Shown here: positions 21,397-21,708 of the stretch, piece after piece
Layout: each line of letters opens with the position of its first letter
Position numbering within the stretch: the first letter of the stretch is position 1
Assembly (NCBI RefSeq): GCF_900177485.1
Contig: NZ_LT840186.1
Location: 744,001 to 808,000 of the forward strand
Direction of reading: 5' to 3'
DNA: 64,000 bases
Source of the DNA: Candidatus Pelagibacter sp. HIMB1321
Lineage (GTDB): Bacteria > Pseudomonadota > Alphaproteobacteria > Pelagibacterales > Pelagibacteraceae
Notes under the pieces: model-generated
The model's database searches: none
What the model was told of the DNA's origin: nothing
Seen by the model: the letters and a program-made list of their open reading frames with translations, nothing else
Program-made: the position numbers and the translations under genes

Positions 21397-21543
21397 TTTT
21401 TAAAAAAACTTTTTGTATTCTCGTTTAAAGGGAAGTAAATTCTGATATCGGGAACCTACTAAAGCATCAGGTTGTATTCAAGAAATATATTTGCATAAAA
21501 TTAAAATAAATTAATTGATAAAAGTTTTAATTATAATTAACTT
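21397..21543. other. Non-coding spacer before the candidate small RNA
   Basis: First half of the longest gene-poor stretch in the window. A weak hairpin (AACCT ... AGGTT, about 21450-21475) follows the dehydrogenase stop and could be its transcript end. A good -10 box, TATAAT at 21532-21537, sits about 14 bp before a perfect Shine-Dalgarno sequence. A TTGATA hexamer at 21515-21520 is too close to be a standard -35. No ORF of note on either strand. Confidence 0.5.
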
Positions 21544-21704
21544 AATAAATAAGGAGGTTATTATGATTAAACTTACACCACCTGACACATAACTGAAGAT
21601 CTTCAAATACGAAAAAACGAAAACAAAAATCCAATCGGATTTAAATGCCAAAGAGGCAACATAGAGGAGCTCTTTTGGTGAAGAGACTGAAAGAGCGAAC
21701 CTCT
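21544..21704 (+). ncRNA. Candidate structured small RNA with embedded mini-ORF
   Basis: A self-contained element of about 160 nt on the plus strand. Downstream of the mini-ORF four helices can be drawn: TGAAGATCTTCA (21594-21605, palindrome), AATCC/GGATT (21628-21641), TGCC/GGCA (21646-21658), and a larger stem of AGAGG plus GCTCTTT (21663-21675) pairing with AAAGAGC plus CCTCT (21690-21704) around a 1x3 internal loop. No plus-strand gene follows, so it is not a leader; the next gene (21709) is convergent. No U-tract ends it, so the 3' end is uncertain. It does not match tmRNA, 6S, RNase P or SRP RNA as I know them. Confidence 0.5.
21563..21592 (+). CDS. Nine-codon ORF (MIKLTPPDT) under a perfect Shine-Dalgarno
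   Basis: ATG at 21563, stop TAA at 21590. AAGGAGGT at 21551-21558 is a full match to the 16S anti-Shine-Dalgarno sequence with a 4-nt spacer to the ATG, the strongest ribosome site I noticed in the window. Codons 6-8 spell Pro-Pro-Asp, a motif known to stall ribosomes without EF-P, placed one codon before the stop. The codons ACCACCT (21577-21583) can pair with the Shine-Dalgarno AGGAGGT in six of seven positions, so translation and structure may compete. This looks like a regulatory or sensing peptide, not a product gene. Translation is inferred. Confidence 0.5.
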   Translation: MIKLTPPDT

Positions 21705-21708
21705 CAAA

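Follow-up and report, generated by a model that had tools for sequence, protein, structure and literature searches.

A stand-alone small RNA gene of Pelagibacteraceae with a conserved PP(D/E)T-stop micro-ORF, possibly working through a pausing ribosome

Results

By comparing homologous loci we could show that a spacer in a SAR11 genome harbors an RNA gene of about 157 nt (about 21550-21707, plus strand) in which a micro-ORF of six to nine codons is kept at the amino-acid level and is followed by three covarying helices. The window, that is, the whole stretch of 64,000 nt that was analysed, has the coordinates G000:C1:744001-808000 and comes from a 1.32-Mb Pelagibacter (SAR11) genome that consists of one contig. 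The spacer that holds the element (21397-21708, 312 nt) has a plus-strand gene on one side and a gene converging from the minus strand on the other. This spacer had been described as the longest gene-poor spacer of the window; it is among the longest, not clearly the longest. The features are:

21453-21481, minus strand: divergent promoter-like element TTGAAT-17-TAGGTT; TTG[AT]AT[AG]CAA on the minus strand in 95/100 loci
21515-21520, plus strand: -35 element TTGATA; TTG nearly invariant across loci
21538-21543, plus strand: -10 element TAACTT, 17 nt from the -35 element; TANNNT is conserved here
21551-21558, plus strand: Shine-Dalgarno sequence AAGGAGGT, where the 5' end of the RNA is predicted; GGAGG nearly invariant
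21563-21592, plus strand: micro-ORF MIKLTPPDT-stop; C-terminal PPDT-stop conserved
21590-21593, plus strand: stop codon with C at +4 (TAAC; TAGC in most relatives), a weak termination context
21593-21626, plus strand: A-rich (56% A) unstructured linker; the distance from stop to helix is 29-53 nt across loci
21627-21642, plus strand: helix 1, AAATCC/GGATTT; double changes in 6/6 pairs among 38 diverse sequences
21647-21657, plus strand: helix 2, GCC/GGC; changes from GCC/GGC to GCG/CGC
21663-21704, plus strand: helix 3, in two parts; double changes in 11/15 pairs

When 221 nt were used as a blastn query, many of 200 further genomes of the genus had homologues, and about 120 loci were collected by blastn or a covariance model and then aligned. 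With a model of 160 positions the element was detected in 76 of 140 near-complete Pelagibacteraceae genomes, one copy each, and the counts from genome searches over 40 genomes are lower bounds as strict filters were applied. It is present in 3 of the 11 genera of the family, and the model search of 190 genomes of the class outside Pelagibacteraceae gave none. When 84,980 species genomes were scanned with a pattern, only SAR11 (Pelagibacteraceae/Pelagibacterales) records were among the 80 matches listed. A permissive rescan of 20 near-complete genomes without a match revealed no convincing copy; thus, the presence of the element is patchy, and as about half of the near-complete genomes lack it, it is not essential. 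The source genome also has one copy. A multi-copy or mobile repeat is ruled out by the single copy per genome, and a phage origin was rejected as there was no match among phage records or viral contigs.

The initial annotation had stated that no gene follows on the same strand and that the element is neither a riboswitch nor a leader. This holds in many contexts: the downstream neighbour is convergent at 229 of 232 loci. It belongs to 20 different families, all convergent, with one apparent exception, seen in two loci in which the nearest called ORF is 498 nt off. The upstream genes occur in both orientations. Since downstream genes of so many families are convergent, the element stands alone.

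The claim that no named RNA family has this build agrees with our search of the Rfam 15 covariance models, in which the window gave no match above the gathering score, nothing was found on the strand and helices of the element even at E<=10, and six divergent relatives were without a match. A tmRNA, with its tRNA-like domain and tag ORF, was not found by ARAGORN or Rfam, and in the literature searched we found no paper describing the element.

Upstream of the GGAGG, at a distance of 7-11 nt, TTG[AT]NN-16/17-TANNNT is found in 86 of 100 non-redundant loci. A TATAAT box had been pointed out before and is indeed present at 21532-21537, but it is not the conserved -10 element; what is conserved is TTGATA-17-TAACTT (21515-21543). 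From this conserved position we suggest that the transcript probably starts near 21550, so that the RNA would begin at its own Shine-Dalgarno site, a point not made before. The divergent promoter-like element is composed of TTGAATACAAC, a 17-nt spacer, TAGGTT and then CCCGATATC; it points away from the RNA, and loci in which the upstream gene runs towards it retain it as well. It is not followed by a conserved ORF (21453-21481, minus strand). That TTGAATACAAC is a general promoter was rejected, as there are just 4 sites in the genome, which is the control level.

In order not to presuppose the ORF, loci were found via the 3' domain alone and the upstream sequence was read without an assumed motif. 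A GGAG-ATG ORF of 6-9 codons is present in 123 of 125 such loci. The two exceptions, L049 (G112) and L051 (G024), are decayed copies with a lost ATG and eroded helices, in which LPDT-stop is still readable; L049 has lost the promoter as well. The perfect ribosome site and the nine-codon ORF MIKLTPPDT reported for the window are both found as described, the latter running from ATG to TAA. The ORF ends with PPDT or PPET in 119 of the 123 intact loci and with LPDT in 4 of them, and P-(D/E)-T-stop is invariant in all, whereas the N-terminal residues vary freely. The proline codons are CCG CCA in L249 and CCA CCA in L103, and in genus g11 the ORF is MSPPET with a TGA stop. The four loci L109, L110, L247, and L248 are otherwise intact and have LPDT in place of PPDT, a natural test of the second proline.

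Changes at codon positions 1, 2, and 3 were counted on a tree of 109 unique sequences, using loci found by blastn or the covariance model and not a pattern-selected set. They amount to 1, 2, 5 for the first proline, 0, 0, 3 for the second proline, 0, 0, 9 for the aspartate, 0, 0, 6 for the threonine, and 0, 1, 6 for the stop codon; from the second proline to the stop codon there are thus 24 third-position changes versus 1 elsewhere. In the last four codons all changes are synonymous, from Asp to Glu, or from stop to stop. As the changes are almost confined to third positions, we conclude that the peptide is under selection at the amino-acid level, and the conservation of the ORF codons, which had been proposed as a check, is thereby established. 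Part of the conservation may be at the RNA level, since the choice of the Asp and stop codons is unusual: GAC is the Asp codon in 62% of the elements versus 13% of the Asp codons in the window genes. The first proline codon is never CCT, though CCT makes up 34% of the proline codons here; CCC/U-C pairs can lead to frameshifting (PMC8129111). A 23-codon ORF starting within helix 2 was rejected, as stops break the frame in relatives, for example, L003 and L012.

A second new point is that the stop of the micro-ORF stands in a rare and weak context. TAG-C is found in 87/100 elements versus 0/54 window genes and C at +4 in 97/100 versus 5/54; three divergent loci have TGA-A instead of the +4 C. 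Inefficient termination with C at +4 has been documented in bacteria (PMC5289835). Readthrough into a longer protein was rejected, as no frame is conserved past the stop (frames 46/27/10, next stop 2 to 60 codons on).

The whole RNA folds better than 200 of 200 shuffles (z -4.0) and the 3' domain alone has a z of -6.1. Double changes are seen in 21 of 31 pairs in the 38 diverse sequences, mainly in helices 1, 2, and 3, helix 3 being composed of an outer AGAGG/CCTCT, an A/GAA internal loop and an inner GCTCTTTTGGT/ACTGAAAGAGC. The 38-sequence alignment was fitted to the model and is hence biased towards structure; it contains 94 double-change cells versus 24 when shuffled, and slid controls are far lower. 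An alignment of 29 sequences by MAFFT only leads to the same conclusion (50 versus 18.8 cells). In the divergent loci L104-L106 helix 1 is rebuilt from different sequence. Four helices had been drawn originally, and the three helices of the feature list are retained with covariation. The fourth, which directly follows the stop (a hairpin at about 21594-21604), is ruled out as a conserved part, since over 76 loci it shows no structure beyond chance (mean z -0.03). Regarding an intrinsic terminator, most loci have no U-run directly 3' of helix 3.

Discussion

The observation of a freestanding structured RNA with a micro-ORF is confirmed by the conserved helices and ORF codons and the always-convergent neighbours, and it is stronger than a first reading from sequence only could show; the interpretation given with it is partly supported overall. 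As what is most conserved is the translation of PP(D/E)T up to a weak stop, we favour ribosome pausing and tentatively suggest that this is a stand-alone RNA gene whose function is a translation event, with the pausing ribosome as its working state, which we regard as quite possible. RNA polymerase would start at about 21550 and the RNA would begin at the Shine-Dalgarno site. The ribosome would translate the 6-9 codons and be slowed at Pro-Pro-(Asp/Glu), where EF-P would be needed, and a second time at the stop, a poor signal, while the peptidyl-tRNA carries PPDT. The start and the stop are so close that a single paused ribosome would keep the next one from initiating, and each RNA would carry at most one ribosome. 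The A-rich linker would separate this ribosome from the three-helix 3' domain, and its presence would decide the fate of the RNA, be it stability, processing or partner binding. The element would thus serve to sense or trap slow elongation or termination. We infer that the element is transcribed, that ribosomes pause on it one at a time and that an output, if any, follows from it. The further proposal, that PP(D/E)T-stop holds one ribosome on a free structured RNA, which then signals in trans that elongation or termination is slow, in a host with almost no other regulators, is conceivable, if on the unlikely side.

Free variation of the N-terminus is expected if only residues near the peptidyl-transferase center matter. 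That Pro-Pro-Asp is an established EF-P-dependent motif, as the initial annotation stated, is borne out by work in E. coli, where PPD is an arrest motif relieved by EF-P (PMC6544042), and the motif is kept in nearly all lineages of the element. The source genome has an EF-P gene (PF08207 match, E 8.1e-23). EF-P and release-factor activity are the likely inputs to a pausing RNA, and EF-P might be sensed by it. This idea is qualified by the LPDT-stop lineages with their single proline and by the strictest conservation, which extends into the Thr and the stop with its weak context and so speaks for termination no less than for the polyproline step. Against pausing stand the four intact LPDT-stop loci without Pro-Pro, the three divergent loci with TGA-A, the unusual Asp and stop codons with their hint of conservation as RNA, and the lack of the element in about half of the near-complete genomes, and no downstream gene or target connects the pause to an output.

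The main rival to ribosome pausing is a functional micropeptide: a released peptide of 6-9 residues with C-terminal PP(D/E)T would be active as a signal or ligand, and the helices would form a protective 3' UTR. Peptide-level selection on the C-terminal residues, the strong ribosome site and the single copy per genome agree with such a gene. But conservation is limited to three to four residues of a peptide whose length varies from 6 to 9, a rare and weak stop context is a poor route to a peptide, and the covariation of the 3' domain exceeds the need of a simple end structure, so that we regard this explanation as rather doubtful. Peptide selection would be left unexplained if the element were a dual-function trans-acting sRNA, whose 3' domain or 5' segment would have mRNAs or a protein as regulatory targets and in which translation of the micro-ORF only modulates stability. 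Its own promoter, its size of about 157 nt, its structure and its position always ahead of a convergent gene would suit such an RNA. However, in the alignments no conserved unpaired stretch of seed length is present outside the ORF, and codon changes break one inside, and the 99.9% complete source genome has no match to Hfq (PF17209; controls positive). Both results argue against a classical pairing RNA and we consider this alternative unlikely.

Two further explanations concern the ORF itself. The proline codons might be kept as RNA, with ACCACCU pairing to the ribosome site AGGAGGU (AGG-A-GGU/ACC-A-CCU) and gating initiation. This pairing is predicted by RNAalifold and in the minimum-energy fold, and 95% of the cells are paired in the 38 sequences. 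Nevertheless, there is one compensatory change only, the hairpin by itself is not more stable than its shuffled versions (z 0.18), the pairing is weakened in the LPDT-stop and CCG-CCA loci, which retain the peptide motif, and it cannot explain D-T-stop. We therefore hold it to be very improbable. A minigene that slows growth because drop-off of very short peptides drains peptidyl-tRNA or ribosomes would have a very short ORF and a very strong ribosome site at the RNA 5' end as seen here; known minigenes are shorter than this ORF. As drop-off needs neither a conserved C-terminal sequence nor a covarying 3' domain, this explanation appears hardly probable at all.

A comparison with known systems is instructive for the pausing explanation. 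TnaC and SpeFL control a gene that lies further along their own transcript. With these termination-arrest leaders the element shares a short ORF, conserved residues beside the stop and an expected slow termination, but its downstream genes are convergent in all 20 families; of the hallmarks of an arrest leader, conserved nascent-peptide residues by the putative stalling codon are found and a same-strand downstream gene is absent. MgtL, a leader preceding mgtA, senses Mg2+ via a Pro/acidic N-terminal motif. Both have an acidic-proline motif very near the start codon; unlike in MgtL, the motif of the element ends the ORF and no gene follows. Natural examples of EF-P arrest sit, to our knowledge, in larger proteins or leaders. 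Shared with EF-P-dependent polyproline motifs (PMC6544042) are PP(D/E) in nearly all copies and the presence of an EF-P gene. Unlike in the known arrest motifs, the motif abuts the stop, and a few intact copies have a single proline. SgrS/SgrT is an example of a dual-function sRNA. With dual-function and peptide-coding sRNAs (survey PMC5521070) the element has in common that a stand-alone small RNA carries an ORF; it differs by an ORF of only 6-9 codons, codon-level selection, no evident pairing seed and no Hfq match.

SAR11 bacteria rank with the Earth's most abundant cells; their regulation is minimal, and very little DNA lies between their genes. An RNA gene of 157 nt outside Rfam, with an ORF under amino-acid selection and present in about half of the near-complete genomes of the family, must earn its place there. 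The element has the look of a device for holding or sensing a ribosome. If the parked ribosome is the working state, we would be dealing with a translation sensor that has no gene downstream, and we know of no other system of such design.

The genome of locus L108 we take to be HTCC1062, and this known copy makes the element testable. It lies at 762688-762860 on the minus strand, between qacH and SAR11_0785 as named in a table of PMC2704228, and the gene borders reproduce the intergenic region 762678-763012 of Table 1 of that paper. A match to the HTCC1062 recA/protease intergenic region, also considered, is wrong. The study of structured RNAs of Cand. Pelagibacter ubique (PMC2704228) thus covers the same lineage; in 2009 it listed this region as GC-enriched with 76 BLAST hits, below its threshold of 200 hits for follow-up, and assigned no RNA to it. 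The convergent neighbour SAR11_0785 (DUF952; 734-1078 in L108) is listed with a 1.52-fold change under iron limitation (PMC2864753).
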